From: a virus
IMG/VR virus record: IMGVR_UViG_3300010938_000124
Location: 1-26,685 of that record
Reading direction: 5' to 3' (one strand)
DNA: 26,685 nt
The translations under genes and the position numbers were made by a program. Each line of letters starts with the position of its first letter. The stretch's first letter is position 1. Shown one piece after another: positions 2,679-19,856 of this stretch. Below the pieces are notes generated by a model, which had not been told where the DNA came from, ran no database searches, and worked only from the letters and a program-made list of their open reading frames with translations.

Positions 2679-3370
2679 CGTACAACGAGATTGAGGCGCA
2701 GGTCCTAGCGGAGCTGAACCGCTCGGACATTGCGGGCGAAGTGCCCGCGTGGGTTGACCGGGCGTACCGCGATGTGATGTCGCGCCACAACTTTACGTGG
2801 ATGCGTGCTACGGACGTACGGATGACGCAGGTCGGCGTGTATCGCTACGCTATGCCTAGCGACTTCTACGACACCGAGGACGTGTTGCTGATTGACGGGA
2901 CCAACTCGCGCGAACTTAAGGAACTGTTGATTAACGAGTTCGACGCGAAGCACCCCAACCCTCCATCGGACCCATACGACAGGCCGACGGAGTGTAGCGT
3001 AGTGCATGGAATGTCTGCCGACGGCGTGCCGTACGTCGAGTTGCACTTGTGGCCCGTGCCGGACGCGGTTTACACGATCCAACTACGTTACGTAGTAACG
3101 GCACCAACGTTGTCCGGCACCGCCGTGCCGATAATCCCGGCGAAGTACCACGCGGTGCTCGTGTTCGGTGCGTTGAAGTACGGCTTCGCCCGGCTACGTG
3201 AGTATGACGCGGCTACGTTTTGGGGCGGCGAGATGGATCGCCTACTGGCGTCGATGATCCGCGAGGATCGTGAGTTGCCCAACGTTCGCCGCCAGTTGGC
3301 GGACTTTCGTCCGACGCGGCCGTACGGCGGCAGCGACCATCTATCACCGTTCGTTAGGAGGATGACGTAA
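2675..3370 (+). CDS. Head-to-tail adaptor candidate
   Basis: 231 residues. GGAGG at about 2661 precedes the ATG, which overlaps the previous stop. The N-terminal helix pair (EIEAQVLAELNRSD, then WVDRAYRDVMSRHNFTWM) followed by a YRYAMPSDFYDTEDVLL strand region is the pattern of phage adaptor or connector proteins that sit below the portal. It also has an ELHLWPVPDAVYTIQLRYV strand and a helical C-terminal half. This shape is shared by adaptor-like proteins of short-tailed and siphovirus phages, so the exact assignment (gp4-like, T7 gp11-like or other) is left open. It lies upstream of the fibre and beta-propeller genes, fitting a tail-assembly block. Confidence 0.55.
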   Translation: MTYNEIEAQVLAELNRSDIAGEVPAWVDRAYRDVMSRHNFTWMRATDVRMTQVGVYRYAMPSDFYDTEDVLLIDGTNSRELKELLINEFDAKHPNPPSDPYDRPTECSVVHGMSADGVPYVELHLWPVPDAVYTIQLRYVVTAPTLSGTAVPIIPAKYHAVLVFGALKYGFARLREYDAATFWGGEMDRLLASMIREDRELPNVRRQLADFRPTRPYGGSDHLSPFVRRMT

Positions 3371-13617: not shown

Positions 13618-14106
13618 ATGTCGAACATCATTGAGCAACTGCTGAGTGGCGGCATCAAAGGACTTGCCGAGGGGCTCGGCAACTTCGCCATCGCGCTACG
13701 CACGGCCATTACCGGCTCTGCCCCAATAGACCCGGCGAAGCAGGCAGAGTTGCTGGCGCAAGCGCAGTTGCTGCAAGCCGCCGCCGAAAAGGCCGCGATG
13801 GACTATGACACGGCGCAGATGCAAGGCGCGGTAGACGTGGCCAAGTTGGAGGCGACTAGCACCGACAAGTTTACGTCGCGCTGGCGCCCGTTCATTGGGT
13901 GGGTATGTGGCGTGGGGCTTGCGATGCAGTACGTCGTCGGGCCGTTGTTCACGTTCTTCGCGAACTGGTATCTCACGTCCGTGCACCAGCCGACTATCAC
14001 GTTCCCCACGTTGAACACGGAGTTGCTGGTCACCCTGTTGTTTGGAATGTTGGGACTCGGCGCGATGCGAACCATTGAGAAACTCAACGGAAAGGCAGGG
14101 CATTAA
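13618..14106 (+). CDS. Holin of the 3TM (GTA-type) family
   Basis: 162 residues, ATG immediately after the peptidase TAA. An N-terminal amphipathic part (IIEQLLSGGIKGLAEGLGNF) and a glutamine/alanine helix (39-75) precede the family signature SRWRPFIGWVCGVGLAMQYV (87-106). A second hydrophobic segment follows around 105-121 (VVGPLFTFFANWYLTSV) and a third at 135-150 (ELLVTLLFGMLGLGAM), then RTIEKL. This is the pattern of the Holin_3TM family first described from gene transfer agents. It would form inner-membrane lesions that release the SleB hydrolase. Its C-terminal third is duplicated in the next gene. Confidence 0.8.
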   Translation: MSNIIEQLLSGGIKGLAEGLGNFAIALRTAITGSAPIDPAKQAELLAQAQLLQAAAEKAAMDYDTAQMQGAVDVAKLEATSTDKFTSRWRPFIGWVCGVGLAMQYVVGPLFTFFANWYLTSVHQPTITFPTLNTELLVTLLFGMLGLGAMRTIEKLNGKAGH

Positions 14107-14110
14107 TATG
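13955..14110 (+). repeat. Tandem duplication, copy 1 (holin 3' end plus next start codon)
   Basis: This stretch covers the last third of the holin gene, its TAA stop and the following T-ATG. It recurs at 14121-14258 with a shift of 166 bases, then 148 bases, because the second copy lacks 18 bases (the PTLNTE region). By eye there are about a dozen single-base differences. The duplicated unit ends with an ATG in both copies, which explains how the second copy became a readable gene. Confidence 0.85.
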
Positions 14111-14254
14111 TTGGTCGCGCTCTTCGCGAAATGGTATCTCACGTCTGTGCACCAGCCGACTATCACGTTGTTGCTGGTCGCCCTGTTGTTTGGGATGTTG
14201 GGACTCGGCGTGGTGCGCACCATCAAGAAACTCAACAAAAAGGCAGGACATTAG
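14108..14254 (+). CDS. Mini-holin / antiholin candidate, partial duplicate of the 3TM holin
   Basis: 48 residues, ATG one base after the holin TAA. From residue 6 the protein repeats the holin C-terminus: FAKWYLTSVHQPTIT, then LLLVALLFGMLGLGVVRTI, then KKLNKKAGH. Six residues (around FPTLNTE) are missing, which fuses the linker into one longer hydrophobic segment. E-to-K and G-to-K changes make the tail more basic than the parent (KKLNKK versus EKLNGK). One hydrophobic helix and a positive tail suit an antiholin that mixes with the full holin, or a small pore former. The reading frame survived the mutations, which suggests selection, but the function is not shown. Confidence 0.7.
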   Translation: MLVALFAKWYLTSVHQPTITLLLVALLFGMLGLGVVRTIKKLNKKAGH

Positions 14255-14872: not shown

Positions 14873-16264
14873 TTATCGTCGGTGCAAGAGGATGTACTCA
14901 TGCGTCTTTCCAGTAATCTCCGTGATTAACCCTGCCTCGCGCAACGTGGCGATAGCCTTGCGAAAGCCGTCGGCGGACAAGTAGCCGTAGTTGCGCTTCA
15001 ACAATTCACTATGGCGTAGCCGCCCACCGGCAGACGCCAACTGGCGCAGTATGCGCTCGTGGTCACGGCCTACGGCGGTAGTTTGCACGTGTGTGAATGC
15101 GTCAGCCATGGTCATTTCGGTGTAGTTAAGAATGTTGAGCGCTTGTTGGTATATCTCGGGGGTTATCACCAGTTCTTCGCCGTAACTCAGCAGGAGTACC
15201 ATACACAACTTGATGAGGTGTTCTTGCTTGCGCTCGTAGTACCCCGACAGGGCAATGTCGTCTTGCGCCTGGCGGCGTTGGGTAGAGTACCACTCCACGC
15301 ACCACGCACGTGCCGCATCACTTTGTACAACTTGGCCCGTAACGGCCGACATGGCGACCAGCTTCGCCAACAGGCGCTCACGCTCCAACGGGTCACGTAT
15401 AACGGGAAACGGCTCGCAGCGGTCCGTGCTCTCGCGGACTACGAACAACACACGCGACAAGAACCCACCGCCGAAGGCAGAGTCGGGAATCACTTGCGTA
15501 AGCAAGTCTGGCGTTGTCGCGCCCAATATGGTAATGTGAATGTTGTGTAGCGTCAGCCGGCCCGAGCCGCGGGTGGTGTACTCCCACTTTGTGTGGCAAT
15601 CGAATAGGCTTGTGAGTAGTGCGATGATGCCCTCGTTATACGTTTGCCGGCCTAAGAAGACGGCCAACTCAGGCGCGTGTATGAAGCCCGTCGCGGACGG
15701 CTCAAGGACGGTACCACCAGACTTCGTTTGGAGTTTGATGTTCTCGTGAAGGTTGACGATCAACCCTTCGGGAGTGATTTTCTCCCGGATTATGTTGACG
15801 CCTGGAACGTTGCCCAACAACTCGACCCCAATGTTGGTCGCGGTACTCTTTTTACACGCGCCTGGTGGCGCGACGAGCACCACATAAAAGTTCGGGTACA
15901 CACGGTAGTACCCTTGTTCGAAGTAAATGTTACGCCGCACAGCGCCACAAATCACGGCGACGCCGACCCAAAAGTGGAACAAGTCTGGCGCCTCGTGGCG
16001 GGCGGTGTAGGTTAAGTACTCGCGAAGCCACCCCCTTTTGGGGAATACATCCTCCGATGGTGCCGGCGGTGGCATAGCGCCGGCGACAATACCATACTTG
16101 CGATATATCGCGTCATGTACTTGTCCCAACGCCTCGGGCGATGCCAAATCACCATATGTACGTAAGTACTCCATAACCTTGTCGCGCAGCTCGACGTTGC
16201 TAGCGTCGGCCTTGCGGATTTGGTCTGCGAGGACCGCCAGCTGGGTGTCGATGTCCAGCGGCAC
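14873..16264 (-). CDS. DUF3987-type replicative helicase/primase-like ATPase
   Basis: 463 residues from GTG 16264, one base after the polymerase TAA and behind a GGGAGGGG site; an ATG at 16303 (13 more residues) is the alternative. A helical N-terminal region leads to a P-loop domain. FWVGVAVICGAVRRNIYFEQ and YPNFYVVLVAPPGACKKSTA (residues about 98-142) match the DUF3987 family, with a modified Walker A (PPGACKKST, lysine in place of the usual glycine before KS/T). TGFIHAPELAVFLG marks the Walker B region. LGATTPDLLTQVIPDSAFGG and FLSRVLFVV follow. A winged helix at the C-terminus (ILRQLASAGGRLRHSELLKR) may bind DNA. The family is thought to unwind DNA at phage replication forks; it lies directly after the polymerase. 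Confidence 0.7.
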   Translation of the reverse strand: MPLDIDTQLAVLADQIRKADASNVELRDKVMEYLRTYGDLASPEALGQVHDAIYRKYGIVAGAMPPPAPSEDVFPKRGWLREYLTYTARHEAPDLFHFWVGVAVICGAVRRNIYFEQGYYRVYPNFYVVLVAPPGACKKSTATNIGVELLGNVPGVNIIREKITPEGLIVNLHENIKLQTKSGGTVLEPSATGFIHAPELAVFLGRQTYNEGIIALLTSLFDCHTKWEYTTRGSGRLTLHNIHITILGATTPDLLTQVIPDSAFGGGFLSRVLFVVRESTDRCEPFPVIRDPLERERLLAKLVAMSAVTGQVVQSDAARAWCVEWYSTQRRQAQDDIALSGYYERKQEHLIKLCMVLLLSYGEELVITPEIYQQALNILNYTEMTMADAFTHVQTTAVGRDHERILRQLASAGGRLRHSELLKRNYGYLSADGFRKAIATLREAGLITEITGKTHEYILLHRR

Positions 16265-16265
16265 G

Positions 16266-17600
16266 TTACCCCTCCCATGAGTGTAGTGCGCCCCATCGTA
16301 CACCTACTTTCACTTCTACAGGAAACACCAGCCCGGTGTACCCGAAGATGTTGACTGGTCGTTCCATCTCGCGCTTCATCAGCGCCGCAACGCGGTCCAC
16401 GTCCCGTTCGGGACACTCGCTGACGATAGCGTCGTGGACTTGGTTCACCATAAACACGCCGGCCTCGTCAAGGCGGATAAACGCCAAGTTGATGAGGTCG
16501 GCAGCCGTGGATTGGATTGGTGTGTTGTACGCAATCCCGGGAAGTTCCTCTTCTCGGGCGAACGTCAGTCGCTTGCGGCCAAAGCCATTGACGATAGTCC
16601 GCGTGCGCTTCGCATGTTCCAACATTCGGTCACGCCATTCGAACACTTCAGGCTCCGCCGCGCGTAGGCGCGCAAGCGTGGCTTCGCACTCCTCAACACT
16701 TCGCAAGATGCCCGCGTCGGTGAACAGTATCTCGCTGATCTTGCGCGGTCCGCCGCCATAGTTCTGGCAGAAGCGGAAGCGCTTCGCGAAGTCGCGTTCC
16801 TCGCGTGTAATCGCTTCTGCCGGCTTGCCGGTAATAGCAACGGCCGTTTGCAGGTGCAAGTCGCCGCCCTTTTCATACACGTCCAACATGCGGCGACAGC
16901 CGCTGGCGTACGCGATCAGCCGCAACTCCAACTGCGAGTAGTCGGCCTCCACCAATACGTTGCCAGGCGCCGCACGGTAGATCGTACGAATGTTCGGCAG
17001 GCGCAGCCCGAACCACTCAGCGTGAGACTTTGGGATGTTTTGGAAGTTGGGGTTTCGCGACGACAGTCGCCCCGTGGCGGTCCCGTGGACGAGGAATCGT
17101 CCGCGGACGCGACCGTCAGGCCAGACATAGTCTTTCATCAAATACGTCCCACGAAGCTTCGCTAGTTTGCGGTAGCACAACAACAGTTTGAAGAATGGCG
17201 AATCATGGCGGAGCCCCATACGCAAGAGGGACTCTTGGTCCATGCTATCGCGGCCGGTGGCCGTTTTCTTGCGGCTACGCAGGCCCAACACGTCCGACAC
17301 GTATCGGCGCACCGCCTCAGGCGAGTTCGGGTTAAACCCGGGGTCCCCAACAATGTCGCGAAGCGCGTCGGCGTACCGCCGGATGCGCTCGTCTACAACA
17401 CGTTGCAATCGCGCGTAGCGTACGTTGTCGCGGTACATCCCGCGATTAGCCATCCGGCGGACCGCCAACGTGAGGGGGTGCACCAACGTGTGGTAAAAGT
17501 CTGACAACTCCAGTTCGTCAAGTTCCGCGCGAAGCGCTTGGTACACCTTGGCGGTTGTTACACAGTCCAGACAGTTGTACGTCCACAAGTCATCGCTCAT
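16266..17600 (-). CDS. polA-like: Family A DNA polymerase, polymerase domain with exonuclease motif III
   Basis: 444 residues from ATG 17600, with GAGG 7 bases upstream, overlapping the stop of the glycosylase-exonuclease gene as ATGA. Residues 1-20 (MSDDLWTYNCLDCVTTAKVY) carry Y8 and D12, the YxxxD pair of exonuclease motif III. TATGRLSSRNPNFQNIP lies at 174-190. Motif A is ADYSQLELR (219-227; D220). Motif B is RxxxKxxxF with R269, K273 and F277, then CQNYG where Pol I usually has FGxxYG. Motif C is QVHDAIV (H389, D390), with alanine where most family members have glutamate. Thumb and palm parts are compact. It replicates phage DNA; proofreading would need the upstream protein. Confidence 0.9.
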   Translation of the reverse strand: MSDDLWTYNCLDCVTTAKVYQALRAELDELELSDFYHTLVHPLTLAVRRMANRGMYRDNVRYARLQRVVDERIRRYADALRDIVGDPGFNPNSPEAVRRYVSDVLGLRSRKKTATGRDSMDQESLLRMGLRHDSPFFKLLLCYRKLAKLRGTYLMKDYVWPDGRVRGRFLVHGTATGRLSSRNPNFQNIPKSHAEWFGLRLPNIRTIYRAAPGNVLVEADYSQLELRLIAYASGCRRMLDVYEKGGDLHLQTAVAITGKPAEAITREERDFAKRFRFCQNYGGGPRKISEILFTDAGILRSVEECEATLARLRAAEPEVFEWRDRMLEHAKRTRTIVNGFGRKRLTFAREEELPGIAYNTPIQSTAADLINLAFIRLDEAGVFMVNQVHDAIVSECPERDVDRVAALMKREMERPVNIFGYTGLVFPVEVKVGVRWGALHSWEG

Positions 17601-18604
17601 ACATCTTCCTCTTCGGCGTCTTTGTCACCTAGCCGCATCCATTTGTAGTACGGCTCACGCACGTAGACGCTGTGCAGAAACGCCAGCGAATGCGGCATCT
17701 CGCTGTAAACGGTGTGGTGCATCAGCATGGTGTCGGCAACCCACCCGTTCACGGCGAAACCGAACGACTCCAACACGTTTACGTCGAACGTCCCGTTTTG
17801 GAACACCTTGGGGCGACTAGCGTCGGCGAAGAACTCGGCAAGCGTCCCCACGACCGCCAGCGCGTCATCTTCGTTAGTCCAGTACCACGCCATGCCGTCC
17901 CAAAATGGTACGCATATTGCGTGGACTTCGTCAGCGGCCACGCCGACACACAACAGGGCGTTGCCCGACGTCTCGATGTCAGGAAAGTACACCGGCGCCC
18001 GGTGGGAGAACCACTCCTCGACTTGCGCCCGTGTTGGGCGTGTGACGAACTCTCGCGGAAGCGGCGAGTGGCGGTGCGTCATGTTCCGGGCGTACTCCAG
18101 ATCGCTGACCACGACGGACCACATCGACGGGTTTCGCATGAGCGCTGCAGGGTGGATTGTGACCATCACCATGCGCCCGTCCCAGTCGTACACACCGCCG
18201 CGGTGGCGTGTAACGCCCCTGCGGCCCAAGATGTACTGCAGCGCCACGTCGCCTAACAACACAACGGGCGTCGTGCGGTATCGCACCATTTCGGCGTCAA
18301 GGTACTGGCGGCAACACGTTGCCGCGCCTGGCAAGTATGGCGCCAGCCGGTTGCCTGGCGGTTGGCACTTCACGACGTTGGTGATGTAGCACCGACTCCG
18401 GGATATGCCCGCTTGCGCCAGCAACGCAGTCAACACGCGCCCTGCGCCGCCACTAAACGGGCGGCTGGTCGCGGCCTCGGTCGCACCCGGGGCTTCGCCG
18501 ATTATCACATAGTCTGCGTCAGCCGGACCTTCGCCGGGCACAAAACCTGTGCCGGCTTGCGCCAGGGGGCACCCGTGACATGTCACAGGCTTCGCAGGAG
18601 ACAT
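17597..18604 (-). CDS. Uracil-DNA glycosylase (family 4) fused to 3'-5' exonuclease
   Basis: 335 residues, ATG one base after the methyltransferase stop, with GAGG 5 bases upstream. Residues 1-170 are a family 4 glycosylase: C9-x2-C12 and C80 plus C97/C98 as iron-sulfur ligands, GEAPGATEAATSRPFSGGAG (36-55), YITNVVKCQPPGNR (73-86) and HPAAL (151-155). Residues 195-320 are a DnaQ/Pol I-type exonuclease: motif I FPDIETSG (D209, E211), motif II FQNGTFD (D274), then ADTMLMHHTVY and LAFLHSVYVREPYY, as in phage polymerases. The protein stops before motif III, which lies at the start of the next protein. An acidic tail (DKDAEEEDV) ends it. It would remove uracil and proofread alongside the polymerase. 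Confidence 0.85.
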   Translation of the reverse strand: MSPAKPVTCHGCPLAQAGTGFVPGEGPADADYVIIGEAPGATEAATSRPFSGGAGRVLTALLAQAGISRSRCYITNVVKCQPPGNRLAPYLPGAATCCRQYLDAEMVRYRTTPVVLLGDVALQYILGRRGVTRHRGGVYDWDGRMVMVTIHPAALMRNPSMWSVVVSDLEYARNMTHRHSPLPREFVTRPTRAQVEEWFSHRAPVYFPDIETSGNALLCVGVAADEVHAICVPFWDGMAWYWTNEDDALAVVGTLAEFFADASRPKVFQNGTFDVNVLESFGFAVNGWVADTMLMHHTVYSEMPHSLAFLHSVYVREPYYKWMRLGDKDAEEEDV

Positions 18605-18605
18605 G

Positions 18606-19856
18606 TTAACCTCGTTTCTGCAGTACGACTAGTTCGCCGACTATCGGCAACATCCGTTTTTCCTGTCGCGCGGCAACTACGTGATACGGTTGCCATATGG
18701 TTGTGGGCCACAAGTTATACACGCGTACGATTGGCGTCATGCCTGTATCAAGGAAGAAGCGGTACCAGATGTATGGGTAGTCCAACATTGGTATGCCGTC
18801 AGGCAAACGATAGTACTGGGTCATCATGATGAACGCGGCGTAGCCGCCTACGGCTAGTACGCGCTGCGTCTTGACGGCAACGTCTCGAAGAAAGTCGATG
18901 TACTCGTCGAGCGGATACGCACCCGCGCCGTCGGGGGAGTAATCTTCGCCGATCATGTTGCCGTATGGCGGGTCGAGAAACACAAGGTTTGCACCTTCAC
19001 ACTCTGGTGGGTAACCGTTACGTATGTCGTTGCGACGTATGTCCGGCCTGCGGGGGTCAATGTCGTACGCCAACACGCGACGGCCCCATGCGTTGCACAC
19101 ATCAATCGTGACTCCGCCCCCGGCGAATGGGTCGACGACCAAGTCGCCCTCGCGGGTAAAGAACCACAACACATTCTCAATTATGCCTGGGTGTATTTGT
19201 CCCGGGTGCGGTTGGCCATACCGCGCGTCGGTCGTGGTGAAGGACCACACGGTATACACTTTGGGGTTGAAGTCGAGCCACGTTTTCGTTTCGCCATACC
19301 GCAGGGTCTTGTAGACCCCGTCGATAGACGCCTCGCCACGGTCGATGCGCTCCATCAACCGCTGCGCGGTAGGGTCGGTCTTGGCACGGTCGTAGACGTA
19401 CTTCATCTTCTCGTACGTACGTCCGCTTACGCCAATGGCGGCGGCGACGATGTCGCGGGTGTTCCCGCCTTCGGCCGACGGTTTGCCCGACAACTGACGT
19501 TCCGCCGCCTTGCGGCGTTCAATTTCCTCAAGTAACTCTGCCTCGCGCATCCGCTCCACAATCGTCTTGTTGCGGTAGCGGTTGTACTCAACAATGGCGC
19601 GAAGTTCGTCGTCAGGCGTTTCATAAGTTTGTATGATACATGGCAACTCCGAGATGCCCAACTCTTGGGCCGCACGATGTCGGCGGTGGCCGGAGACGAC
19701 CCGGTAGTCAGGCGTTACCACGAGCGGCTGTAGCACCCCTTCGCTTCGCACCGACGCGACGAACGCATCCCACTCTTCGCCGGTGGTGGTGGAGTACAAC
19801 TCCTCATTCTTAGGGTGCGGGCGAAGTTTCGTCGTTTCGATCATGACTACGTCCAT
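18606..19856 (-). CDS. ParB-domain / DNA methyltransferase fusion
   Basis: 416 residues; GAGGAGG 4 bases before the ATG. Residues 1-95 are a ParB/Srx-like domain: LRPHPKNEE, LQPLVVTPDYRVVSGHRRHR with the G-x-x-R-x-x-A box at 56-63. A helical region with an HTH-like part (IVAAAIGVSGRTYEKMKYV, 136-154) follows. Residues 200-416 are an amino-methyltransferase: HPGIIENVLWFF, the AdoMet loop DPFAGGG (242-248), DID as the acidic ribose-binding end, and the catalytic DPPY (295-298). It should methylate an adenine N6 or cytosine N4 in DNA. No restriction enzyme is nearby, so it is likely an orphan enzyme for self-protection or regulation. This fusion is known from other phages. Confidence 0.85.
   Translation of the reverse strand: MDVVMIETTKLRPHPKNEELYSTTTGEEWDAFVASVRSEGVLQPLVVTPDYRVVSGHRRHRAAQELGISELPCIIQTYETPDDELRAIVEYNRYRNKTIVERMREAELLEEIERRKAAERQLSGKPSAEGGNTRDIVAAAIGVSGRTYEKMKYVYDRAKTDPTAQRLMERIDRGEASIDGVYKTLRYGETKTWLDFNPKVYTVWSFTTTDARYGQPHPGQIHPGIIENVLWFFTREGDLVVDPFAGGGVTIDVCNAWGRRVLAYDIDPRRPDIRRNDIRNGYPPECEGANLVFLDPPYGNMIGEDYSPDGAGAYPLDEYIDFLRDVAVKTQRVLAVGGYAAFIMMTQYYRLPDGIPMLDYPYIWYRFFLDTGMTPIVRVYNLWPTTIWQPYHVVAARQEKRMLPIVGELVVLQKRG

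Follow-up and report, generated by a model that had tools for sequence, protein, structure and literature searches.

A phage family A DNA polymerase and a uracil-DNA glycosylase fusion protein that divide the residues of one proofreading exonuclease site

The window analyzed here, meaning the whole stretch of DNA, is the 26,685-base IMG/VR virus record IMGVR_UViG_3300010938_000124. Two overlapping genes on its minus strand form the locus of interest. The upstream gene (ORF1, protein P0001; 17597..18604) encodes a 335-aa protein that joins a uracil-DNA glycosylase (UDG) to the N-terminal part of a 3'-5' exonuclease domain, and the downstream gene (ORF2, protein P0002; 16266..17600) encodes a 444-aa family A DNA polymerase with the third exonuclease motif (ExoIII) at its N-terminus. 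A Pfam search of both proteins, which the first-pass annotation of this DNA had proposed, matches P0001 to UDG (PF03167, 4e-30) and, over residues 246-314, to DNA_pol_A_exo1 (PF01612, 1e-6), and P0002 to DNA_pol_A (PF00476, 4e-72); no Pfam exonuclease model is matched by P0002. The catalytic aspartates of the polymerase palm, D220 and D390, are present in ORF2. The pair is flanked by a ParB-methyltransferase gene (18606-19856) and a DUF3987 primase/helicase-like gene (14873-16303). The former, on the minus strand directly upstream of the UDG-exonuclease gene, joins a ParB N-terminal domain to an N6/N4 DNA methyltransferase, and a ParB-annotated gene lies at the matching position in a related locus, L003. 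Elsewhere in the window (13618-14254, plus strand), a holin-like gene (PF11351) is followed by an ORF that partly duplicates its C-terminal region in tandem.

Within ORF1, the family 4 UDG domain spans residues 3-180 (18065..18598, minus strand, as are all features below) and matches the family 4 enzyme 1ui0 with an E-value of 2e-32. By alignment it keeps E37, F50, N76 and H151 together with the four [4Fe-4S] cysteines C9, C12, C80 and C97/98. The exonuclease core follows at residues 185-323 (17636..18052), as placed by VIA-align against Klenow fragment, and stops before ExoIII. It carries the ExoI residues D209 and E211 (FPDIETSG; 17972..17980) and the ExoII residue D274 (QNGTFDVN; 17783..17785). 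The ExoIII residues Y8 and D12 (TYNCLDCV; 17565..17579) belong to ORF2. Each of these positions aligns with the corresponding motif in relatives that carry all domains in one chain, and all ExoI, ExoII and ExoIII residues of a DEDDy exonuclease are present, spread over the two ORFs. The first-pass assignment of motifs I and II to the UDG fusion and of motif III to the polymerase is thus borne out by both Pfam and the alignment to fused relatives.

At the junction, the ORF1 stop and the ORF2 start overlap in ATGA (17597..17600), and a GAGG located 7 nt upstream of the ATG (17608..17611) is the likely ribosome binding site of ORF2; the coordinates, strand, overlap and GAGG site reported earlier are all correct. 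ORF1 ends in an acidic, disordered tail, GDKDAEEEDV (17600..17635; pLDDT <50 for residues 324-335), which lies in the linker holding the cut. Upstream of its own ATG, the ORF2 reading frame is open for only eight codons.

Structure models were built with AF2 from alignments of split and fused homologues, one half at a time, and reach a pLDDT of 88 for ORF1 and 94 for ORF2. The glycosylase part of ORF1 (3-180) superimposes on 1ui0 with a VIA-align Z of 25.9. UdgX structures match this domain nearly as closely (Z 24-25), but the motif reads GEAPG, which we take to mark a family 4 UDG, and UdgX was rejected. ORF1 residues 180-335, the last stretch of which is the low-confidence tail, match Klenow residues 324-494 (1d8y; Z 14.9, rmsd 3.9 over 152), and ORF2 residues 1-440 match Klenow residues 485-928 (1kfs; Z 38.8, rmsd 3.4 over 411). 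The first modelled residue of ORF2 falls at approximately Klenow 485-490, and its first helix (residues 3-29; 17514..17594), the last part of the exonuclease and attached to the polymerase, carries Y8 and D12. The ExoIII residues of Klenow, Y497 and D501, fall on the ORF2 side. Taken together, these positions place the cut in the loop that leads into the ExoIII helix, with the helix covalently attached to the polymerase. In fused relatives the measured segment holding the cut varies from 31 to 48 aa (5-95% range), as expected of a tolerant surface loop.

Relatives were collected by scanning IMG/VR and genome contigs, classifying stop-to-stop ORFs with HMMs and removing duplicates. Single-protein scans yield no close relative of ORF1 and one distant relative of ORF2. 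The full survey finds a cut between ExoII and ExoIII at 89 distinct loci (88 of them complete) from many different metagenomes, and 128 distinct fused, single-chain sequences in IMG/VR and in phage loci that were fetched; fused examples include the environmental phages MW202455, BK063670, MW202489, OP947158 and Brevundimonas phage StAshley. The split set includes a cultured podovirus, Caulobacter phage Kuura (PMC9959647), in which a protein with UDG, ExoI and ExoII is followed by two small ORFs and then by a polymerase that starts with ExoIII. Kuura's putative proofreading subunit has been missed, as the UDG-exonuclease half is annotated as a ‘hypothetical protein’ and the other half as ‘DNA polymerase’. 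Kuura-type polymerases have 524 confirmed relatives in IMG/VR, and among the best 80 of these all with enough upstream sequence are split. The proposal that two polypeptides are made, with the exonuclease site cut between motifs II and III, is supported by this recurrence. Judged from the sequences collected, the split set is a large, overlooked group of related phages. A search of the open-access PMC literature found no account of the recurrent split.

In the split loci, ORF1 is placed upstream of ORF2 on the same strand. The median gap between the halves is 483 bp (10-90% range 159-886; extremes -52 and 1683), and where the halves are hundreds of bases apart, neither missed bases nor frameshifting nor readthrough can explain the arrangement. 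The largest separation, about 5.1 kb on the same strand, occurs on a contig that supplied both L158 and L315; L158 had been a candidate for a phage with an ExoIII-bearing polymerase and no UDG-exonuclease half, and was rejected upon finding that half 5.1 kb upstream. Other loci that apparently have no UDG-exonuclease half end near a contig end. The evolutionary distances of ORF1 and ORF2 correlate (r 0.73, 0 of 500 permutations). A short acidic tail is usual, the last residue of ORF1 being D or E in 69 of the 89 loci. In most Kuura-type loci the ORF2 start lies about 23-26 residues ahead of the ExoIII tyrosine, compared with 7 residues in the window, L028, L031 and L043, and a Shine-Dalgarno-like sequence precedes the best ORF2 start in 55/89.

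Two candidate causes of the split were rejected in examining what lies between the halves. A homing endonuclease, which is common but not obligatory in the gap of such divided phage genes, does not serve as a general cause, since among the gap ORFs examined an HNH-like ORF occurs only in L101, and in the window the halves have no gap. The HNH-like ORF (L101:5040-5510) ends in KNGTIKKED, which imitates the ORF1 end KTGTLKKED, as if the insertion had brought along a duplicate of the 3' end of ORF1. A conserved gap gene was also considered: a related small ORF lies between the halves, directly upstream of ORF2, in 12 Kuura-type loci (L097, L099-L102, L105, L107-L111 and L113), two members match DUF1937/DUF4406 and it is possibly a nucleotide-metabolism gene. 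This DUF1937-like ORF was seen in 12 of the first Kuura-type loci and was not found in the rest. Breaks at other positions were also seen. In L077 and L079 (5600-5622) the polymerase ORF is broken inside the polymerase domain, which is a different split, and in L114 (4484-4486) an in-frame stop separates the UDG and exonuclease domains.

The five catalytic residues of the exonuclease are invariant in 88/88 complete split loci, which makes the pattern in the window more than chance. The ExoI pair is also invariant in all 128 fused sequences; ExoII D is found in 89/89 split and 124/128 fused sequences, and ExoIII Y and D in 89/89 split loci, with Y present in 127/128 fused sequences. The ExoIII residues are among only 18 fully invariant columns of 391 in ORF2, beside the catalytic aspartates of the polymerase, and the ExoI and ExoII residues are likewise among the invariant columns of ORF1. 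The glycosylase residues vary in these same ORF1 proteins (N is kept at position 76 in 58/89 and H at position 151 in 51/89), and the iron-sulphur cysteines appear mostly missing, by counts that are rough owing to gaps in a fast alignment. Selection is thus stricter on the composite exonuclease than on the glycosylase, and proofreading in trans is strongly implied at the level of sequence conservation.

A tree was built from alignment columns of the UDG, exonuclease and polymerase, omitting those at the junction. The ExoII/ExoIII cut sits in three places in this tree: the window, a clade around L028, L031, L043 and L303-L306, and the Kuura clade. Fused sequences are the nearest neighbours of both clades. 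A single change is insufficient in all 200 bootstrap trees, and a single split clade is rejected (log-likelihood difference 277, p-AU 1.6e-6). Evolution seems to have made the cut three times in the same loop. The three changes could formally be one gain followed by two re-fusions, but it is the fused form that is widespread. The sister group of the window, L003 and L015 (support 100/98), to which L317 is added by its similarity to L015, also has two genes; there the cut falls just after the ExoIII helix, so that the UDG protein contains the complete exonuclease. No other known member of the window's lineage has the exact ExoII/ExoIII cut. In L003 (MW202554, ctLwi270), an 86-aa ORF with an NrdR-like zinc ribbon (PF22811, 2e-14) lies between the UDG-exonuclease and polymerase genes (2878-3138). 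The first-pass annotation had proposed that many relatives with an intact exonuclease in one protein would refute the split. Such relatives are indeed numerous, as the 128 fused sequences attest, yet the fused form is likely the ancestral state and the split stands.

The explanation we favor, and consider probable, is gene fission followed by the docking of two subunits that complete the proofreading site in trans. A one-chain phage family A polymerase, ordered UDG, 3'-5' exonuclease and polymerase, would have been cut in the loop that connects ExoII to ExoIII. The upstream gene would then supply the UDG and most of the exonuclease, with the residues D, E and D, and the downstream gene would supply the polymerase preceded by the last exonuclease helix, which brings Y and D. 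The halves would be made separately, in the window probably by termination-reinitiation at the ATGA through translational coupling, and would dock via the old intradomain interface, now a subunit interface. The two-metal exonuclease site would be complete only in this complex, and the product would be a proofreading polymerase of two subunits, the exonuclease subunit also bearing the UDG domain.

Several other readings must be weighed against fission with docking. A sequencing or assembly error confined to the window, in which a truly fused gene gained or lost a base just before 17600, is unlikely. The window's junction is among the tightest, and the butt-joined halves give a linker of 38 aa compared with a median of 35 in fused relatives, with no sequence missing, so that correcting a single missed base would yield a fused gene of ordinary form; moreover, the window is a single sequence, alone in its lineage with this exact cut, and the junction's ATG and GAGG carry little weight because acidic codons easily supply GAGG. 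However, 88 further loci have a genuine cut at the same point, most with intervening sequence and ORFs, the three nearest relatives of the window also carry two genes, albeit with a later cut, and the mistake would have to fall within the last ~26 nt before the ATG. It is very improbable that frameshifting, stop readthrough or splicing yields a full-length fused chain, whether alongside the two proteins or replacing them. No slippery heptamer of the form X XXY YYZ is present in the ATGA overlap sequence of the window, no group I or II intron is matched at the Rfam gathering score in 16 split loci or in the window (where only a tRNA is found), the halves are separated by hundreds of bases at most loci, and a start belonging to ORF2 itself occurs at a conserved distance. 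These points outweigh the fact that the window needs only a -1 shift and that in L028 (4982-4984) and L201 (3992-3994) the halves share a reading frame interrupted by one stop codon, where readthrough could make a fused chain.

The exonuclease could also be dead, the cut having inactivated proofreading and left ORF1 to serve solely as a UDG and ORF2 as a polymerase lacking exonuclease, and from the fold either free half, lacking part of the metal site, should indeed be inefficient alone. This reading is very unlikely, as the five residues are invariant across 88 loci over long tree distances, whereas UDG residues in the same ORF1 proteins drift, and family A polymerases that lose proofreading, such as Taq and Bst, lose the exonuclease motifs. 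Finally, the UDG-exonuclease may be a detachable fidelity subunit, with polymerase made in excess and lacking proofreading until joined, so that the split sets or times the mutation rate. Separate genes and starts, often with ORFs between, would allow unequal expression, and the idea is compatible with all of the sequence data, but an obligate complex would equally account for the co-inheritance and the constant gene order, and we regard it as improbable to about the same degree as the sequencing error. The broader proposal that phages set or switch fidelity through the supply of the docking subunit that completes the polymerase's exonuclease site is slightly more plausible, and we offer it as speculation.

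Proofreading during replication is normally the work of a complete exonuclease, present as a polymerase domain or as a whole protein of its own. In these phages the catalytic site is shared out over two gene products; the division recurs at a single loop, and the site has stayed intact over long divergence. Such phages offer a natural split-enzyme system for asking whether subunit supply can regulate proofreading and how gene fission becomes fixed. They also bear on why UDG domains ride on phage polymerases. The suggested placement of uracil detection at the replication fork is nothing peculiar to the split, given that a UDG is already joined to the polymerase in single-chain enzymes (SPO1 gp31, PaBG and phiLo), nor is uracil detection the conserved function, because the UDG catalytic residues drift in many split relatives, even though the UDG of the window looks intact.

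SPO1 gene 31 is an intron-interrupted polymerase gene. Its product and the solved phiLo polymerase (PDB 9qhs) have the same three domains in a single chain, as do gp205 of phage PaBG and its group (PMC7412058). These enzymes are homologous to the window pair and share its domain order, but each is one polypeptide with the exonuclease uncut, whereas the window has two ORFs. The three-domain association is therefore not new; the cut through the exonuclease site is. Other phage enzymes encoded by genes in pieces share the trait of being one gene in relatives and two retained ORFs in the phage concerned. Most members of the MEP401-type group of OM43 phages encode PolA in two ORFs with a small ORF between (PMC10580990), but there the cut lies inside the polymerase domain, the exonuclease is whole and no UDG is reported. 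The T4-like Aeromonas phages 25 and 44RR encode their replicative polymerase as gp43A and gp43B, and the two proteins of phage 25 co-purify and are polymerase-active (PMC2988022). These are family B enzymes of separate origin with no UDG, in contrast to the family A polymerase with a UDG described here. In phage Aeh1, NrdA is divided within a region critical to its function; it reassembles and is fully active, and the split is attributed to insertion of a homing endonuclease (PMC2988022). NrdA is a different enzyme and its split is described as one case, whereas the cut between ExoII and ExoIII is recurrent. Aeh1 NrdA and phage 25 gp43 nevertheless provide a good precedent for the proposed assembly of the UDG-exonuclease and polymerase halves.
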